A DNA stretch of 64,000 nt from Alkalibacter rhizosphaerae (GCF_017352215.1 NZ_CP071444.1:992001-1056000); one strand, 5' to 3'. Shown: positions 11,601-19,950, counted from the stretch's first letter. Program-made: numbers and translations. Notes: generated by a model not told the origin, from the letters alone.

Positions 11601-11620
11601 TTTTCAGATCAACGACAAAA

Positions 11621-11657
11621 AACAACGCCGGATCCTTTTTAAGGACAAGGCGTTGTT
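11621..11657. terminator. Bidirectional terminator
   Basis: AACAACGCC pairs with GGCGTTGTT over nine bases, with A and T runs on the outer sides and a second small stem inside. It ends both the YeeE pair and the opposing six-gene operon. Confidence 0.82.
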
Positions 11658-11660
11658 TTT

Positions 11661-12122
11661 CTATGCTTTCCTTTTTTGCCAAACGTTGACGGCTCGTTTT
11701 CCAAACAGGTAGATCTGCACCAAACTGGCCATTAGGATGATCCCAAAGGCCATGGCCCCCACCTTGGGTGCCAGCAGGGCCATTTCCATGCCAAAGGCGG
11801 ACATTTGGTTTTGGACCAGATAAGTGGTGGCCTGATAGAGGTCTCCTCCGGGGATCAAGGGCACCAGCATGGGCACCAGGAAGAGGATCACCGGTGCTTT
11901 CACCACCCGGGCCAGTATTTCCGACACCAGGGATACGGTGAAGGTGGCGGCAAAAAAACCGAAGATCTCCGCCCCGCTCCAGTGGGCCGCCAACAGATAC
12001 ATCCCCCATACAAGGGACCCTCCCAGACCGCAAAGGATCAGTTTATAGCCTCGAACATGGAACATGACGGCAAAACCCAGGGAGCAGAAAAAAGACATGA
12101 TGACAGCGATCCATTCGCTCAT
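11661..12122 (-). CDS. Threonine/serine exporter, small subunit (ThrE C-terminal domain)
   Basis: A 153-residue, roughly five-helix membrane protein matching the ThrE_2 half of the threonine/serine exporter family; the segment VKAPVILFLVPMLVPLIPGG is typical. In many Clostridia the two halves of ThrE are separate genes, as here. The start ATG overlaps the stop of the upstream half by four bases. It is the last gene of a six-gene minus-strand operon. The export role is from the family; substrate choice between threonine, serine and small peptides is not visible. Confidence 0.85.
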   Translation of the reverse strand: MSEWIAVIMSFFCSLGFAVMFHVRGYKLILCGLGGSLVWGMYLLAAHWSGAEIFGFFAATFTVSLVSEILARVVKAPVILFLVPMLVPLIPGGDLYQATTYLVQNQMSAFGMEMALLAPKVGAMAFGIILMASLVQIYLFGKRAVNVWQKRKA

Positions 12123-12883
12123 AGGATACCACCTCCAAACCAGGTCATCACCAAAGCAAAGCCGAAGGAAATGGCCAGAGACCGAAGGATGGCATCCCCC
12201 AGACCCATGATGCCGGTGACCAGGTCTCCGTTGATCATGTCCCGCAGGGAAGTGGTGAGCAGGATCCCAGGGATCAACAACATAATGTTTCCAATGATGA
12301 TCTTGTCCATGTGTTCTCCAAGACCCAAGGCGATGAACCCCAGAGCACTTATCCCAACGGCAGCAGAGGCAAAGAAGTTCAGAACGATGGTTTTCAGCCC
12401 GATCTTGCGGGCCAGGCGGACCGCCAGGCGTAGGATCAATCCGCATAGAAATGCGGTGATCCCATCGGCCACCGTACCACCAAAAAAGACGGAAAATGCA
12501 CCGGAGACCATGCCGTAGTTGAAAAACATCACCCATTCGTTATAGCCTTTGGTCTGCTGGATATTCTCCACTTCCCTTGCCAGATCCTCTTCTTTTATTG
12601 GGCTGGCGCAGGCTCTTCGAGACAGATGATTGATCTTTTCGATCTTGTTCATGTCGGTGGCGTATTGAAGGACCCGCCGGGTCTGGGTGAGGACCGTCCC
12701 TTCGGGCAAATGGGCGCTGGCAGTGATGTTGGAGGTGATGGAAAACACATCCACCCTGGTAAATCCGTAGGCCAGTCCCATCCTCTTTACCGTATCCTCC
12801 ACCCGATTGACTTCCGCTCCGGATTGAAGCAGAAGTTCTCCCAGATCCATGATGGCGTTGAAGATGCCGCCTTTATTCTCCAT
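12119..12883 (-). CDS. Threonine/serine exporter, large subunit (ThrE N-terminal domain)
   Basis: This 254-residue protein has the soluble ThrE_1 region (residues 1-120, with GELLLQSGAEVNRVEDTV) followed by about five membrane helices. It pairs with the overlapping small subunit to form the complete exporter. The ribosome site GGGAGG sits six bases before the ATG. Its first bases overlap the end of the frameshifted GNAT gene by 11, so it depends on that transcript. Its place behind an LRR-VWA-MoxR set is unusual for an amino-acid exporter. Confidence 0.87.
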   Translation of the reverse strand: MENKGGIFNAIMDLGELLLQSGAEVNRVEDTVKRMGLAYGFTRVDVFSITSNITASAHLPEGTVLTQTRRVLQYATDMNKIEKINHLSRRACASPIKEEDLAREVENIQQTKGYNEWVMFFNYGMVSGAFSVFFGGTVADGITAFLCGLILRLAVRLARKIGLKTIVLNFFASAAVGISALGFIALGLGEHMDKIIIGNIMLLIPGILLTTSLRDMINGDLVTGIMGLGDAILRSLAISFGFALVMTWFGGGIL

Positions 12884-13420
12884 GGGATCCTCCCTTTTGT
12901 TCCATCGTATTTATCGTCTTTTGGTACCCCAACCGCAAGGACCCGTTTTCCAGGCGAACCACCCCACAATAGCGAAATCCCTGCTTTTCCAGAAACCGCC
13001 GCATGGGCAGGTTGTCTTCATGGGTGTCGATGCGGATGTTCTTGCATCGCTCCCAGCACCAGTCCAAACAGCGGGAGGCCACTCCCTGCTCTCTGGACCC
13101 CACGGCGATCCGGTGGATCACCCCGTAGGGACCTTCTTCCCGCCAGGTTCCCTCCACCAGTTGGTCATAGGTGGGATCCACTTCCTCCGGCGCAAAGTAA
13201 AAGACGCCCACCACTTCTCCCAGGTAGGTACAGACATGGCTTTTCCCCTGCCTGATATCTTCCAGGATCTGCTCCTCGGGGGATGGTTTCCCTGCCACTG
13301 ATGGGGGTTTCCACTCTCCCGCATGAATGCCCGGGCCTGGGCATAGACTTCCATCACCTGGGGAAGATCCTGCCGGGTGGTCTTTCGTATGTTCCATTCT
13401 TCTTGTCTATGATCTTTCAT
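12873..13420 (-). pseudogene. GNAT-family N-acetyltransferase, frameshifted
   Basis: The first 46 or so residues, starting MKDHRQEEWNIRKTTRQDL, lie in one frame and the rest, from SPEEQILEDI to the C-terminus, in the next. The switch falls at a run of five C on the coding strand (13278-13282); adding one base restores a 182-residue protein. The C-terminal frame holds the acetyl-CoA region HRIAVGSREQGVASRCLDWC and the family ending IRIDTHEDNLPMRRFLEKQGF. It sits six bases after the MoxR gene. Either a real null allele or a homopolymer error in the sequence. Confidence 0.85.
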
Positions 13421-13426
13421 GGTCCG

Positions 13427-14938
13427 TTATATCTCCAATTCATCGATTTCTTTTAAAATATTAGCCTGTTTTTCATGAAACATGAGCTTTTTGTTGTGCC
13501 GGTAATAATCCGCAGACCCCTGGGTGGCAATAAACTTGGCGCTGTAGTAGTTGGCCGTTAGTTCCGCCACCAGCATGCGGACCTCCCGGCCGTCCCCGAA
13601 GACGTCCTCCGCAAATTGGAAGAGGTGGTGGAGCTGGTCGGAAATGGTTTTTGCTCCCGCTTTCATCTGACCCACCATGGCGTCAAAATCTTCCCGCATG
13701 GTGGAAAAGGCTTCCTGATGCCTGGTGATCTCTTCTTTCCGGCAAGTCCGTCGAACTTCCCGCAGAGCCCGGAGGATCCGCTGGTATCCATGGCGCCCCT
13801 GTTCGGACAGGCTGTTGGCCTTTTCCTCCCCTTCCATGGCCAGCCGCTGCTGACGGATATGGCTTTCCAGAAGGTCATCCACATCTTTTTTCGCCAGATC
13901 GCAATCGATCTTCACCTGTTTCATCACCTGGATATAGTCCCGCAAAAAATGTTCCGTCCACTGATGATAACGGATGGATTCCTGGATGGATTCCAAGAGG
14001 AGACTCAATAGGGAGATCCGTTCATCCCCGTCTGCTTCCCTGGCCTTTTGCCGCACATCGGAGGAAGCTTTTCCCTCCAGGATCTCCTGGATGCGGTAGT
14101 CTTCCTTGTACTTGTTGTAGAGCTGGTAATAGGCGGAAAAGCCTCTGGCAGTCTTGTCGTGTCGCAGGTACTGGCCCACCACTACCAGATCCACATCCAG
14201 CTCTTCTTCTTCGTAGAGCCGGATGGCCTCCGACAAATCTTCCCAGCCCCTGGCGGTGACGAAGGACTTTCCGTCCACGGTCGTCTCCATGACGTAAAAG
14301 TCATCCTTTTTAATGTCCAGATAGGATAGGATAGAACCATGGATCCCTTTGGTGGATGCGTAGTTTTTCCAGACGCCGTAATCCTCCTCCACTTCCAGGA
14401 TCTTTAACCGGTCCATGGTGACCACGTCGAATTCCCGGACGGATCGATTGTATTCCGGCGGATTACCGGCGGTGACCACCACCCAGCCATCAGGGACCTG
14501 GTGACGACCAAAGACCTTGTATTGGAGAAATTGGAGCATGGCTGGAGCCAGTGTCTCGGAGACGCAGTTGATCTCATCCAGAAATAGGATCCCTTCTTCC
14601 TTGCCGCTTTCTTCCATGGTGTCATATACGGATGCGATGATCTCGCTCATGGTATATTCACTGACCACGTGGTCCTTCCCCCCGTATTGTTTGTGTTCGA
14701 TATAGGGAAGACCCAGGGCGCTTTGTCGGGTGTGATGGGTCATGGAATAGGAAACAAGGGCCACCCCCAGTTCCTGGGCGATCTGCTCCATAATGGCCGT
14801 TTTTCCGATCCCCGGTGCCCCCAGCATGAAGATAGGGCGTTGGCGCACGAGGGGGATCTTGTAGCCTCCGAATTCGTCTTTCTTCAGATAGATTTGAATG
14901 GCATGCTTGATCTGATCCTTTGCCTGTTGTATGTTCAT
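13427..14938 (-). CDS. MoxR-type AAA+ ATPase
   Basis: A 503-residue cytoplasmic ATPase. Walker A is GAPGIGKT (40-47), Walker B ILFLDE (117-122) and sensor-1 asparagine N159 lies in TAGNPPEYN. The AAA+ core fills residues 1-260; the rest is a long, charged, mostly helical region unlike short MoxR proteins. In the MoxR group such ATPases act with a VWA partner to insert cofactors or remodel protein complexes. Here the VWA partner is the directly upstream gene, overlapping by ATGA. The client is unknown; the LRR protein at the head of the operon is a candidate. Confidence 0.88.
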   Translation of the reverse strand: MNIQQAKDQIKHAIQIYLKKDEFGGYKIPLVRQRPIFMLGAPGIGKTAIMEQIAQELGVALVSYSMTHHTRQSALGLPYIEHKQYGGKDHVVSEYTMSEIIASVYDTMEESGKEEGILFLDEINCVSETLAPAMLQFLQYKVFGRHQVPDGWVVVTAGNPPEYNRSVREFDVVTMDRLKILEVEEDYGVWKNYASTKGIHGSILSYLDIKKDDFYVMETTVDGKSFVTARGWEDLSEAIRLYEEEELDVDLVVVGQYLRHDKTARGFSAYYQLYNKYKEDYRIQEILEGKASSDVRQKAREADGDERISLLSLLLESIQESIRYHQWTEHFLRDYIQVMKQVKIDCDLAKKDVDDLLESHIRQQRLAMEGEEKANSLSEQGRHGYQRILRALREVRRTCRKEEITRHQEAFSTMREDFDAMVGQMKAGAKTISDQLHHLFQFAEDVFGDGREVRMLVAELTANYYSAKFIATQGSADYYRHNKKLMFHEKQANILKEIDELEI

Positions 14939-16212
14939 CTCTTCAACTCCTGTTCTCCCAATGTGATCTTGATGGCCCAGGATGGGACCTGGGGCCCTTC
15001 TTCTTCCTCCAAAAAAACGAAGGCTGTATCATAATCCGGTTTCTTTCCAGGAAACCGACCGTATCCGTCGGTAAAATAGATCAGCCCTTTCAGGTTTTCC
15101 AGTGCACCCGTCTCCACAAGCTGATCCACGTATTCAAAAACCGGACGAAAGTCCGTCCCGCCAAGCCCGATGATCTGCAGATCTTTCAAATAGGCGTTGA
15201 ACTCCTCCGTGGATGTGATGTGGGTCACCTGCTGGACCTTGTTGTCGCTCATGACGATGTAGATGTTCACCTTCTGAAAAAAACTGCCGGTGTTTTGAAG
15301 AATGGAATAGGTTTTTTCCAAAAACGACTGAATCAGCTCTCCAGAGCAGGATCCGGAAGTGTCCAAGGCGATGACAAAGTCCCGGATCCGGGTCTCTTCC
15401 GCATATTCCAAGGGCTCCACCAGGGGCATGTTGCCGTAGAGTTCCATGCCGTAGGTGTAGAACACGTAATCGAATTCGTCGTCGTTGATCTTCATTTCTT
15501 CATGGAGAACGGCAAATTTTCGCAGAAAGGCTTCGTAGTTGATCCGGTCCCGGTGAACTTGCCGCAAGTTTTGAATCAGTCCGTCGGATCTGGATGCCAG
15601 GGCTTTGGAATAAGTCTCCAGATCTGTTTTCACCTGCTGGCTCAACTGTTTCCATTCGTCCATCCGACCGAAACCTTTGGATTCTTTCCAATAGTCGTGA
15701 TGGTCCCGGAAAAACAGGGTTTCCAAATTCCTTGTCTCTTCTTCCTCTAAAGAGGTCTCTTCCAGATGATGGTAGATGTTCTCCGCCATCCCCTTCAGAT
15801 CCCGTTTTTTCCATTGTTCCAAGACTTCTTTTTCCTTCCCGTCCCGATAGGTCCTACACATCCCCAACTGAAGCTGCAGGATGATGTCTTCCACCACCAT
15901 GTCGCAGGCCAGGTCCCAATGACGCTTGTTTTTGCCATCCGCCGTAAAGGGATGGGCCAAGATGCAGTGAAGGACCATGTGGAGCAGATCTCGAGCCGGC
16001 TCGTTTCGTTCTTCCTTGAACTTTTTCAGCAGATACCGGGGCTGAAAATACACATCCATGGTGTTGGTCCCCAGGGCCTCTTCCGAAACCGGGGTCCACC
16101 GGCATCTATGGAGGGCCCGATCCAAAAAACGCAGGGACAGGACCAAGCTGTCTCTTGCATCCTGGAGCAATTCCAAGGCCAGGATCTCCATTCTTTCTTC
16201 TTTGGCGTCCAT
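14935..16212 (-). CDS. VWA protein with degenerate DUF2201-type metallopeptidase region
   Basis: A 425-residue protein of two parts. The N-terminal half resembles the DUF2201 putative metallopeptidase domain, but the HExxH motif reads HMVLH (78-82), with methionine for the catalytic glutamate; His87 is kept. The C-terminal half is a VWA-like domain with an intact MIDAS: DTSGS (284-288), the GGTDF threonine, and the aspartate of FTDG. The start follows GGGAGGAAACC; a longer reading would overlap the LRR gene. VWA partners commonly dock on MoxR ATPases, and the ATPase follows at once. Expect metal binding but no proteolysis. Confidence 0.82.
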   Translation of the reverse strand: MDAKEERMEILALELLQDARDSLVLSLRFLDRALHRCRWTPVSEEALGTNTMDVYFQPRYLLKKFKEERNEPARDLLHMVLHCILAHPFTADGKNKRHWDLACDMVVEDIILQLQLGMCRTYRDGKEKEVLEQWKKRDLKGMAENIYHHLEETSLEEEETRNLETLFFRDHHDYWKESKGFGRMDEWKQLSQQVKTDLETYSKALASRSDGLIQNLRQVHRDRINYEAFLRKFAVLHEEMKINDDEFDYVFYTYGMELYGNMPLVEPLEYAEETRIRDFVIALDTSGSCSGELIQSFLEKTYSILQNTGSFFQKVNIYIVMSDNKVQQVTHITSTEEFNAYLKDLQIIGLGGTDFRPVFEYVDQLVETGALENLKGLIYFTDGYGRFPGKKPDYDTAFVFLEEEEGPQVPSWAIKITLGEQELKR

Positions 16213-16225
16213 GGTTTCCTCCCGT

Positions 16226-17344
16226 CTAAAAATCGATGTCCCAAGGGTCATCCAGACCCTTGATCCCTTCATCCAATCCAAATCGTCGGTTTTGCACTTC
16301 CAGTAAATACAGCATGCAATGGGTGGCCTGTTTGCGGGATGCCTCTTCCAGCAACCCGTGGATGTTGTCCGAATCGACAAGATCCAGTTCTTCCATCACA
16401 TGGAGTCCGTCCACCCCATCCACTTCCAAAATCTTGCGAAAGATGGCGTCCTGATGCCGGACCAGCTCTTCCCGATAAACTCCTGTGGCTTCCGGTCCTG
16501 GCTGAAAAGATCCCATGGCATAAGAGAACAGCAGATCCTGCAGCTGCCGATGATCGAAGAGGATTTCCATGGACCTGGAAGATCCCTGATATGCGCGCAG
16601 GGTCCTTCCCTCCAGGATCCGACGCAGTCCGGACAAAACCTCGTCGGGCAGCTCCTGGTGGATGGGGATGGATACCTTTTCCAGGTACTTCCCCCTCCCG
16701 AAGGCCCACTCACCCATGCCGACAAGCGACTCCGACAAGGTCAACTCTGAAATGGGACATCCATAAAAGGCATGATTGCCTACATAGGTCACCGACTTAT
16801 CCAGGAAAAGGGCATCCAGGCCCTTGCAGCCCCAAAAAGCCTCTCCGACAATTTCTTTCAGTGTTTCCGGCGAATGAAAGGAACCGTTCCACCCAGGCGG
16901 TGCCGCCAAGAGTCGGGTTCCGTCTTTTGTGTATAAAATGCCATCCAACACCTTCCAGTGGGGATGGTCCTCCGCCAATGCCAAGGCGGAGAGCTCCTGG
17001 CATCCTTCCAGAAAGTGGGGACCCAGCTCCTGCAAGCCACCCGGCAACTCCAGCTCCTTTAGGCTGCTGCAATTTTTAAAAGCACTTCCTCCAAGGACCT
17101 CCAGGGTCTGGGGAAGTTTTATTCGCTGCAAACGGGAGCAACCGGACAAGGCATACCAACCCAATGTCTTCATGCCTTCCGGCAGGATCAGCTCCTCCAG
17201 ATCCCGATGGTTGGAAAAGGCCCATTCTCCAATGGACGTTACCGGCAGATCTTCCATGCTCTTGGGAACTTTCAACCGTTCCACCGCCGGACCTTCCCAA
17301 CCGGTGACCTCCACTTCCCCCATTTTTATTTGATAGGTAAACAT
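16226..17344 (-). CDS. Cytoplasmic BspA-type leucine-rich repeat protein
   Basis: This 372-residue protein has seven or so BspA-like LRR units (about residues 30-235), recognisable by repeats such as IGEWAFSNHRDLEELILPEG and AFYGCPISELTL. The C-terminal 130 residues are helical, with no LRR pattern. There is no signal peptide or anchor, so unlike most BspA proteins it stays in the cytoplasm. It heads a six-gene operon, with AGGAGGAGATGAC before the ATG and 13 bases to the VWA gene. A target-recognition or adaptor role for the MoxR-VWA pair is inference from position. Confidence 0.8.
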   Translation of the reverse strand: MFTYQIKMGEVEVTGWEGPAVERLKVPKSMEDLPVTSIGEWAFSNHRDLEELILPEGMKTLGWYALSGCSRLQRIKLPQTLEVLGGSAFKNCSSLKELELPGGLQELGPHFLEGCQELSALALAEDHPHWKVLDGILYTKDGTRLLAAPPGWNGSFHSPETLKEIVGEAFWGCKGLDALFLDKSVTYVGNHAFYGCPISELTLSESLVGMGEWAFGRGKYLEKVSIPIHQELPDEVLSGLRRILEGRTLRAYQGSSRSMEILFDHRQLQDLLFSYAMGSFQPGPEATGVYREELVRHQDAIFRKILEVDGVDGLHVMEELDLVDSDNIHGLLEEASRKQATHCMLYLLEVQNRRFGLDEGIKGLDDPWDIDF

Positions 17345-17413
17345 GTCATCTCCTCCTGTCTACCCTCCCATTATATTCCACTTGATTGGATTCGCAAAGG
17401 GGTCCACAAAAGA

Positions 17414-17443
17414 TTGGACACCAAGGTTGAAATGTTGTAAAAT
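17414..17443 (+). promoter_or_regulatory. Promoter of the glycyl radical enzyme gene
   Basis: TTGGAC and TAAAAT are separated by 18 bases and lie about 55 bases before the start codon. The leader is AT-rich with no clear operator. Confidence 0.55.
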
Positions 17444-17499
17444 AAAACCAAATCATCAAATTTAAATGTATTTAATCCAACATACAAGGAGGCAAAACC

Positions 17500-19950
17500 A
17501 TGACAACACCCAAACCCGTCACCCCCAGGATCCAGAAGATGCGCCAGCTGGTCCGGGACCGGATCATCCAAATCGACATGGAGCGGGTCCGACATGTTAC
17601 GGAATCCTATAAGAAAAACGCAAAAGTACCCCCCATCGTCAAGATCCCCATGGCCACCTATGACATCTGTTCCAAGATGACCTGCCGGGTGGAAGATTTT
17701 GAGATCATCGTGGGGAACATCGGCACGGAATTTCTCGGCTGCGGCATGTGGCCGGAATGGGACGCCAGCTGGCTATGGCAGGAATTGGAGGACGGCTCTC
17801 TCTGGAACATGGAGGAAGACGGCCTCTACCACCGGACGGATGCTTCCGGCGTCCACATGACCCTCCACCCCGCCGACCGGGAAGAGTTCATGACCTACCG
17901 GGACTACTGGAAGGACAACACCATCACCTCCAACATGGACCACTGGGCTCCTGACGGTAGCGACGAGATCATCGAGCTGGGCGTCACTTCCTACATGACC
18001 GGCATGGAGCGGGCACAGATCGCCAGCGGCCATCTCATCCCGGGATTTGAAAAGATCCTTCAGGTTGGTTACGGAGCCATCCGCAAACAGGCCCAGGACT
18101 GGATGGACGACCACAAGGGCAACCTCATGGGAGAGGATCTCAACCGCTTCCTCTTCTACAAGTCGGCGGTCCTGGTCTGCGACGCCGCTACCGCCATGAT
18201 CAAAAATTATGGAAAAGCCTGTCTGAAAAAGGCGGAAGCCTGCACAGACCAAGAGCGAAAAACAGAACTTCTCCAAATGTCCGATTCTCTGGAGTGGATT
18301 TCGGAAAATCCGGTTCGGACCTTTTGGGAAGCCTGTCAGGCCACCATCCTCTACCAGCTGCTATTGTATATGGAGGCCCGTCATCCGGCCCTGGCCTTCG
18401 GCCGCTTCGACCAATACACCTGGCCCTACCTGGAAAAGGACTTGGAAGAAGGCCGATTGGATCCAGACCAGGCCCAGGAGATCGTGGATGCCTTCTTCTT
18501 GAAATCCAACTGCTTCTACCGGGCATCCAATCCGAAAGTGGCCGCCGTCACCGGCATCGGTGTGACCTATCACCACACCACCATCGGAGGGGTGGATCCG
18601 GATACTGGAGAGGATTCTTCCAATCCGGTGACCTTCATGGTGCTGGATTCCATGAGCCGACTCATGCTCCACGATCCCACCATCTCCCTGCGGATCAACA
18701 AAAACACTCCAGATGCCTTGTGGGACAAGGCCATCGAGACCACCCGCTTGGTAGGAGGGCTGCCCCTGTTTCAAAATGATGAAGTGATCATCCCCAGCCT
18801 CATGGAAGAACTGGACTTCACCCTAAGGGATGCCCGAGACTACGGCATCATCGGATGCCAGGAGATCGTCGGCTCCGGCAACGACTACCCTTGCGGCAAC
18901 GGCCTCCACGGAAAAGCCGGACTGGGAAGCCACGGCACCATATTGCTTTGCGCTCTGAACAACGGCGTCAACCCCATGAACGGAAAATCCGGCGGTCTGG
19001 AGACGGGTTACCTTTACGACATGGAGTCCTTTGAGGAGGTGAAGGCCGCCTACAAGGCCCAGTTCGACTACCTCCACAAATGGTCGGTGACCATCCAGAA
19101 CTACTGCGAATATCAATCCATGCAGCACGCACCCCACGCCGCCCTTTCCATCTCCATCGACGGGTGTATGGAATCGGGAAAAGACTGTACCAGCGGTGGG
19201 GCAAAATACAACTCCTACGGCGGTACCGCCACAGGCCTGGCTACGGTGGCCGATTCCCTGGCCGCCATCAAGCATTTGGTGTTCGATGAAATGATCTGCA
19301 CAGCCAGAGAACTATACGATGCCGTCATGAAAGATTGGGAAGGTTTTGAGACCCTTCGCCAACGGGCCCTCCACGATGTCCCCCATTACGGCAACGATGA
19401 TCCTTACGCCGACGACTTGATGAAATGGGTCTGCGATATCTACTATGACAACTGCAAGGAATGCTACAGCACACGGAGCAAGTACTACAAGGCCGGTTTA
19501 TACGGCGCTTCCAACCATGTGATCCAGGGCTTTGGGACCTGGGCCACTCCCGACGGACGAAAAGCGGGGACCCCCTTGGCAGATGCCACGTCACCGGCCC
19601 AGGGACGGGATCAAAACGGACCGACAGCAGTGTTCAATTCCTGCTGCACCATCGATCACGGCAAATTCATGGACGGCATCGCACTAAACCTGCGGATCCA
19701 CCCCAACGCCCTCCGATCGGAAGAATCCAGGATCTCTTTGCGGGAGATGACCAAGACCTACTTCGAAAAGGAAGGAATGGAGGTCCAGTACAATGTGGTC
19801 AGCGCTGATGTGATGCGGGCAGCCCAGAAGGAGCCGGAAAAGTACAACGATCTGGTGGTCCGCATTGCCGGATACTCCGCCTATTTCAATGAACTTCCCA
19901 CACCCATGCAAAACGACGTGATCAGTAGAACGGAAAATCAAATTATTTAA
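17500..19950 (+). CDS. Glycyl radical enzyme of unknown substrate (PFL-like)
   Basis: This 816-residue enzyme has the thiyl/glycyl pair of the family: Cys453 in IIGCQEI with Glu455 two residues on, and Gly791 in RIAGYSA near the C-terminus. Cys-x-Glu marks the eliminase and decarboxylase side (diol dehydratases, choline and isethionate lyases) rather than pyruvate formate-lyase, which has two adjacent cysteines. GCQE differs from the usual GCVE or GCIE, so I do not assign a substrate. The start follows AAGGAGGCAAAACC. No activating enzyme, microcompartment shell or transporter shares its transcript, so activation must come from elsewhere. Two terminator-like hairpins follow. Confidence 0.9.
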   Translation: MTTPKPVTPRIQKMRQLVRDRIIQIDMERVRHVTESYKKNAKVPPIVKIPMATYDICSKMTCRVEDFEIIVGNIGTEFLGCGMWPEWDASWLWQELEDGSLWNMEEDGLYHRTDASGVHMTLHPADREEFMTYRDYWKDNTITSNMDHWAPDGSDEIIELGVTSYMTGMERAQIASGHLIPGFEKILQVGYGAIRKQAQDWMDDHKGNLMGEDLNRFLFYKSAVLVCDAATAMIKNYGKACLKKAEACTDQERKTELLQMSDSLEWISENPVRTFWEACQATILYQLLLYMEARHPALAFGRFDQYTWPYLEKDLEEGRLDPDQAQEIVDAFFLKSNCFYRASNPKVAAVTGIGVTYHHTTIGGVDPDTGEDSSNPVTFMVLDSMSRLMLHDPTISLRINKNTPDALWDKAIETTRLVGGLPLFQNDEVIIPSLMEELDFTLRDARDYGIIGCQEIVGSGNDYPCGNGLHGKAGLGSHGTILLCALNNGVNPMNGKSGGLETGYLYDMESFEEVKAAYKAQFDYLHKWSVTIQNYCEYQSMQHAPHAALSISIDGCMESGKDCTSGGAKYNSYGGTATGLATVADSLAAIKHLVFDEMICTARELYDAVMKDWEGFETLRQRALHDVPHYGNDDPYADDLMKWVCDIYYDNCKECYSTRSKYYKAGLYGASNHVIQGFGTWATPDGRKAGTPLADATSPAQGRDQNGPTAVFNSCCTIDHGKFMDGIALNLRIHPNALRSEESRISLREMTKTYFEKEGMEVQYNVVSADVMRAAQKEPEKYNDLVVRIAGYSAYFNELPTPMQNDVISRTENQII

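Follow-up and report, generated by a model that had tools for sequence, protein, structure and literature searches.

The real unit at this locus consists of three genes, which encode a BspA-type LRR protein, a DUF2201-type VWA protein and a MoxR-like AAA+ ATPase. The three genes lie in a stretch of 64,000 nucleotides from Alkalibacter rhizosphaerae (NZ_CP071444.1, 992001-1056000; hereafter the window), of which positions 11661-17344 hold six tightly packed minus-strand genes. All six of the genes reported in a first-pass annotation of this DNA were present, and each was named by Pfam. The genes and their flanking signals are as follows.

17370-17397, minus strand: sigma-70-like promoter match upstream of the LRR gene, TTGCGA-16-TATAAT (10/12, a consensus match only)
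16226-17344, minus strand: LRR component, BspA-type, 372 aa (Pfam LRR_5, 113 bits against a cut-off of 27.7, 1.2e-32)
14935-16212, minus strand: VWA component, DUF2201-type, 425 aa (Pfam PF09967, 8.1e-14; PF13203, 4.2e-7)
13427-14938, minus strand: MoxR-like AAA+ ATPase, 503 aa, with a C-terminal extension of ~200 aa (Pfam AAA_5, 9.9e-8)
12873-13420, minus strand: GNAT acetyltransferase, frame broken, outside the conserved machine (Acetyltransf_1, 31.1 bits)
12119-12883, minus strand: ThrE, large part of a split threonine/serine exporter, outside the conserved machine (PF06738, 4.1e-64, 216.8 bits)
11661-12122, minus strand: ThrE_2, small part of the split exporter, outside the conserved machine (PF12821, 2.7e-31, 108.9 bits)
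11617-11661, minus strand: terminator hairpin with a T-run, 3' of the last gene, ThrE_2 (-23.5 kcal/mol, z -6.55)

The three-gene unit and its neighbours

The spacing given in the first-pass annotation was reproduced, with a gap of 13 bases between the LRR and VWA genes, an overlap of 4 between the VWA and ATPase genes, a gap of 6 between the ATPase and GNAT genes, an overlap of 11 between the GNAT and ThrE genes and an overlap of 4 between the ThrE and ThrE_2 genes; the gap of 6 depends on a GNAT start that lies in another frame. The single terminator at the end of the cluster was likewise found as a strong hairpin (z -6.55). A short divergent intergenic stretch (17345-17499) with promoter matches on both strands separates the LRR gene from a plus-strand gene (17500-19950) that we take to encode a glycyl-radical-type enzyme.

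The VWA protein was used to search 61 related genomes, 12 of which contained a relative, one of these a weak match only. In each of the eleven strong loci that lie outside the window, genes for the LRR protein and the ATPase adjoin the VWA gene. A species-level collection with one genome per species yielded at least 588 stretches with relatives of the ATPase, the best 80 of which, nearly all labelled Clostridia and many from animal guts, were combined with the eleven strong loci to give 91 loci. Open reading frames were called mechanically, and LRR genes lying under longer antisense frames were located by six-frame search. The VWA/ATPase pair is accompanied by a gene for an LRR protein or for its C-terminal module in 83 of the 91 loci; three of the remaining eight end near the ATPase gene at a contig edge, and loci in which no recognisable LRR partner was found include L078, L104, L231 and L232. 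The order is VWA-ATPase-LRR in 52 loci, with LRR-VWA-ATPase and other orders in the remainder. The comparison of Clostridia neighbourhoods that the first-pass annotation had proposed showed recurrence of the trio but not a constant gene order, and since the order varies the trio is not frozen synteny. The pattern was the same in 30 held-out stretches, drawn from 28 additional genomes that may share species with the discovery set. Locus counts are not independent events, since the loci are related and the 80 retained were the best matches. The genome of A. rhizosphaerae encodes only two LRR_5 proteins, which argues against LRR abundance as the cause of the adjacency. No further conserved partner was found, no other family occurring in more than 17 of the 91 loci, and the family that reached this number is a generic ABC ATPase. 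Correlations between distance matrices (Mantel), with shared species history left in, were 0.92 for ATPase and VWA, 0.86 for ATPase and module and 0.81 for ATPase and LRR.

A run of five C (13278-13282) interrupts the GNAT frame, leaving the first ~45 residues (start at 13420) and the remainder (ORF 12873-13397) in different frames. The acetyltransferase assignment therefore holds for the Acetyltransf_1 domain but not for an intact gene. Both halves are continuous in one frame in the congener (L026), and the window copy is either a pseudogene or a homopolymer assembly error. The two-part amino-acid exporter was borne out by Pfam, which placed ThrE and ThrE_2 in neighbouring genes. Relatives of GNAT and ThrE adjoin the trio in one of the 91 loci, that of the congener, which has the same six-gene order as the window and is also the only one of the eleven strong loci with these neighbours; none was found beside the trio in the 30 held-out stretches. 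Two of the three genomes of the genus contain both the trio and the GNAT-ThrE block and one contains neither, and a functional link confined to this lineage is conceivable. The functional tie to export and acetylation suggested by the first-pass annotation was rejected on these frequencies and on the broken GNAT frame; the location of GNAT and ThrE beside the trio is not supported as a functional link and is taken as a local accident, the two being bystanders.

Domains and conserved sites of the three proteins

The sites discussed below are located as follows.

16253-16495, minus strand: C-terminal helical module of the LRR protein, approximately residues 284-364 (profile A4)
16229-16252, minus strand: flexible acidic/hydrophobic C-terminal tail of the LRR protein, DDPWDIDF (residues 367-372 with pLDDT below 50, predicted disordered)
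15967-15981, minus strand: degenerate metallopeptidase motif of the VWA protein, HMVLH (HxxxH lacking Glu; sequence comparison)
15349-15363, minus strand: MIDAS of the VWA protein, DTSGS, with T353 (15154-15156) and D382 (15067-15069)
14798-14821, minus strand: Walker A of the ATPase, GAPGIGKT (conserved in 12/12)

The LRR protein was predicted by AlphaFold with a pLDDT of 94.2, and its best structural match was the LRR domain of pneumococcal PcpA (Z 22.6, rmsd 3.6, 251 residues aligned, residues 3-262), a BspA-type surface protein; TpLRR, also of this type, matched with Z 18.8. The trio protein shares the LRR_5 solenoid with PcpA and TpLRR but, unlike them, lacks an export signal and carries a C-terminal helical module linked to the VWA/ATPase pair. 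A crude hydropathy test (not SignalP) revealed neither a signal peptide nor a membrane segment in the window protein, the maximum 19-residue hydropathy being 0.81, and by the same kind of test a hydrophobic N-terminus was present in 2 of 79 LRR relatives versus 175 of 744 other ORFs. These results, together with the recurrence of the trio, uphold the proposed grouping of a cytoplasmic LRR protein with the VWA protein and the MoxR-like ATPase.

The module, of ~90 residues, is common to the LRR proteins. Of 393 Clostridia genomes searched with profile A4, 25 were positive, comprising 24 of the 27 genomes positive for the VWA subfamily (E < 1e-60) and one of the 366 VWA-negative genomes, the match in the latter being borderline. 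Of the 24 genomes having both, 23 have the module within ~8 kb of the VWA gene. By this profile search, the module is a diagnostic partner domain all but confined to genomes that have the VWA/ATPase pair (24/25). The module is followed by a short tail with a terminal acidic/hydrophobic pattern (WDIDF, FDFSL, FELDW, FTLD) that was found in 56 of 79 module proteins versus 43 of 744 other ORFs and in 13 of 25 held-out proteins, the latter being the fairer figure since the discovery sequences had served to define the pattern.

Of the three proteins, the LRR protein shows the lowest conservation; at 60-70% identity of the ATPase, identity averages 55% for the VWA protein and 38% for the LRR protein. 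The repeats range from few to many, the length of the protein also varies widely, and several LRR or module genes are present in 10 loci, with copies distant from the VWA/ATPase pair in two genomes (G389 and G288). The role in target choice that the first-pass annotation assigned to the LRR protein fits this fast evolution, variable repeat number and multiplication. In two expanded clusters (L058, 4365-18518; L071, 3009-13804), a single VWA/ATPase pair is surrounded by several LRR or module proteins together with a DUF4132 protein. DUF4132 and LRR repeats occur on the same chain beside the machine at L093 (4525-8436; 1304 aa) and L108 (4461-6908; 816 aa, with a weak LRR match). Proteins combining LRR, WGR and DUF4132 are known from Leptospira (PMC11674859).

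The VWA protein (AlphaFold pLDDT 86.4) scored 52.3 bits with the DUF2201 VWA profile (cut-off 26.4) and 30.3 bits with DUF2201_N (cut-off 23.2). The VWA fold was recovered by structure search (Z 14.7, rmsd 2.8, 164 residues aligned, residues 222-425) and extends to the C-terminus; no credible solved relative was found by sequence. The matches of the two structure searches were all taken up by the LRR and VWA domains and thus do not bear on the fold of the LRR C-terminal module or of the VWA N-terminal domain. The MIDAS residues DxSxS-T-D are invariant in 63 of 63 aligned relatives. The N-terminal domain falls in a putative metallopeptidase family, but the catalytic Glu of HExxH is present in none of 90 readable trio-type proteins versus 11 of 12 other DUF2201 proteins, and position 108 has changed from Asn to Glu in 89 of the 90. 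Since the two histidines, H78 and H82, are fixed together with D104 and E108 in the 63 relatives, a metal site devoid of peptidase activity is plausible in the N-terminal domain. Residues 246-269, just before the VWA domain, are highly conserved and predicted with low confidence, and might be a part that folds against a partner.

The Walker A, Walker B, sensor 1 and Arg finger motifs of the ATPase are conserved in 12 of 12 proteins. The label MoxR is loosely true, the AAA_5 profile being over its cut-off (32.5 bits) but AAA_3 falling short (13.4 versus 27 bits); bpMoxR is just sub-threshold (25.9 versus 27 bits). The only solved relative found by sequence was Midasin, over 42 residues. A mobile and a phage origin were considered and rejected: plasmid matches, among those listed, covered no more than ~55% of the ATPase at 23-29% identity, and IMG/VR matches were 20-31% identical. 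Seven short unannotated faecal records named 'Bacteriophage sp.' (H16-H22; MT837836, MT835935, MT837993 and others) match the ATPase at 42-61% identity and are perhaps bacterial contamination of virus preparations.

Relation to known MoxR-VWA systems

The trio resembles the published MoxR-vWA ternary systems (VMAP, iSTAND, FtsH, beta-propeller, iSTAND2 and TERNS3; PMC7159879, PMC8195603) in combining a MoxR-clade ATPase, a vWA protein with a MIDAS and a third protein, conserved but fast-evolving, all from neighbouring genes. It is placed outside the published classes because its third protein is an LRR_5 protein with its own helical C-terminal module and its vWA protein has no C-terminal effector domain. 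The published classes have been reported mainly from multicellular prokaryotes (PMC7159879, PMC8195603), whereas the trio occurs in anaerobic Clostridia, both gut and environmental ones, and its gene order is not strict. No LRR-type MoxR-VWA ternary system was found in the literature on MoxR, vWA, LRR, BspA, DUF2201 and DUF4132.

NorQ/NorD, CbbQ/CbbO and RavA/ViaA likewise pair a MoxR ATPase with a VWA partner, and NorD and CbbO share the DxSxS-T-D MIDAS with the trio protein; unlike the trio, these systems are two-part, act on known enzymes and have no LRR component. To our knowledge, the VWA partners in the NorQ, CbbQ and RavA pairs do not contain a DUF2201_N domain.

Other DUF2201 proteins of Clostridia (L195-L204, L208) have the same two-domain VWA architecture and mostly lie beside a MoxR-like ATPase gene, often with a third gene. 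They differ from the trio proteins in keeping HExxH and Asn 108, and their ATPases are ~130 aa shorter and are separated from those of the trio by a long branch of 2.8 substitutions per site, the longest in the tree (with a low support of 0.21). A gene for an SNF2-type helicase of ~1150 aa lies directly upstream of the pair at L195 (5799-11774) and L197 (5833-11853), with L204 similar by size. At L198 (6484-9827) and L199 (5653-8906), and similarly at L200, the pair is preceded by a DUF4116 protein of ~257 aa, which is another repeat protein as third partner. A classical HExxH pair at L203 (2934-7444) has genes for a radical SAM protein and an LRR_5 protein ahead of it, and the LRR association is therefore not unique to the trio subfamily.

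The yehF-yehQ cluster of E. coli K-12 brings together the YehL ATPase, the YehP VWA protein and the DUF4132 protein YehI, and some trio loci also have DUF4132; unlike the trio, the cluster has no annotated LRR protein. Close kinship with the cluster was not supported, YehL and YehP matching the trio proteins over generic motifs only, with hhalign probabilities of 20.6% (ATPase) and 1.0% (VWA) against single-sequence targets.

Proposed mechanism and alternatives

We put at about even the prospect that the LRR protein, VWA protein and ATPase form a three-part ATP-driven remodelling machine, with the LRR protein as an exchangeable receptor that docks by its module and tail. The ATPase would form a ring, to which the VWA protein would be coupled as NorD is to NorQ. 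In NorQD a finger of the VWA protein enters the pore of the ATPase ring (PMC9976466) and the MIDAS is thought to bind acidic residues or an acidic patch of the target (PMC13036017, PMC9976466), while MIDAS mutants of CbbO cannot activate rubisco (PMC4660213); it is by analogy with these systems that the VWA protein is proposed to connect the ring with a ligand. The LRR solenoid would bind the target in the cytoplasm, the helical module would dock the receptor, and the acidic tail would be presented to the MIDAS or to the pore, after which ATP hydrolysis would remodel or release the target. An exchangeable cytoplasmic receptor is favoured because the LRR protein is the least conserved component, varies in repeats, has been multiplied and has no export signal. 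An extension of the proposal, in which one core of ATPase and pseudo-metallopeptidase-VWA protein serves rapidly changing LRR receptors through a common module and tail as an AAA+ surveillance machine, is offered tentatively as a possibility.

Alternatively, the LRR protein could be a dedicated client or a fixed structural subunit into which the ATPase and VWA protein assemble or insert something. Co-inheritance of the trio fits a dedicated client equally well, and known MoxR-VWA pairs mature one partner enzyme, as NorQD does cNOR (PMC9976466). We regard this explanation as unlikely, given the wide variation in repeat number, length and copy number of the LRR proteins and the finding that module and tail are also carried by DUF4132 proteins or LRR-DUF4132 fusions (L058/L071, L093 and L108), which makes them more like a shared handle than parts of one client.

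The invariant H78, H82, D104 and E108, retained despite loss of the peptidase Glu and with E108 in place of the Asn of peptidase-like relatives, are also consistent with a machine for metal or cofactor insertion, in which a metal bound at the HxxxH/D/E site of the VWA protein would be delivered to an enzyme by the action of the ATPase; metal insertion is known for MoxR-VWA pairs such as NorQD (PMC13036017). The neighbours of the trio in the 91 loci include no conserved metalloenzyme family, however, and a role of this kind is judged improbable.

The shared MoxR-VWA core and the fast-evolving, sometimes multiplied third component recall the VMAP and iSTAND ternary systems, which are predicted conflict systems (PMC7159879), and the LRR protein might accordingly sense invaders as part of an immune system. 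Against this, Pfam identified no effector domain in any of the three proteins, no close relative was found on plasmids or in IMG/VR, no partner family recurs in the 91 loci, and neither the LRR nor the VWA protein was matched by a PADLOC model. The searches gave no sign of a mobile defence island, although the layout resembles that of predicted conflict systems, and we consider an immune function quite improbable. The view of the first-pass annotation, that all six genes serve a single function whose product is also acetylated and exported, agrees with the tight packing, the one terminator and the shared order in the congener but is scarcely credible with GNAT and ThrE in one of 91 loci and in none of the held-out loci, and with the GNAT frame broken.

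The lost peptidase Glu provides a clean marker separating the trio machine from ordinary DUF2201 pairs. With three genes, clear motifs and a tail of under ten residues, the trio would be a small system for probing target choice by MoxR-VWA machines. The proposed LRR machine would extend the ternary systems by a class that has a classic recognition fold as its third part and would give a BspA-type LRR protein a cytoplasmic role. If receptors are indeed swapped on a common core, the cell would retarget protein remodelling by adding LRR genes, comparable to the retargeting of other AAA+ machines by interchangeable adaptors.
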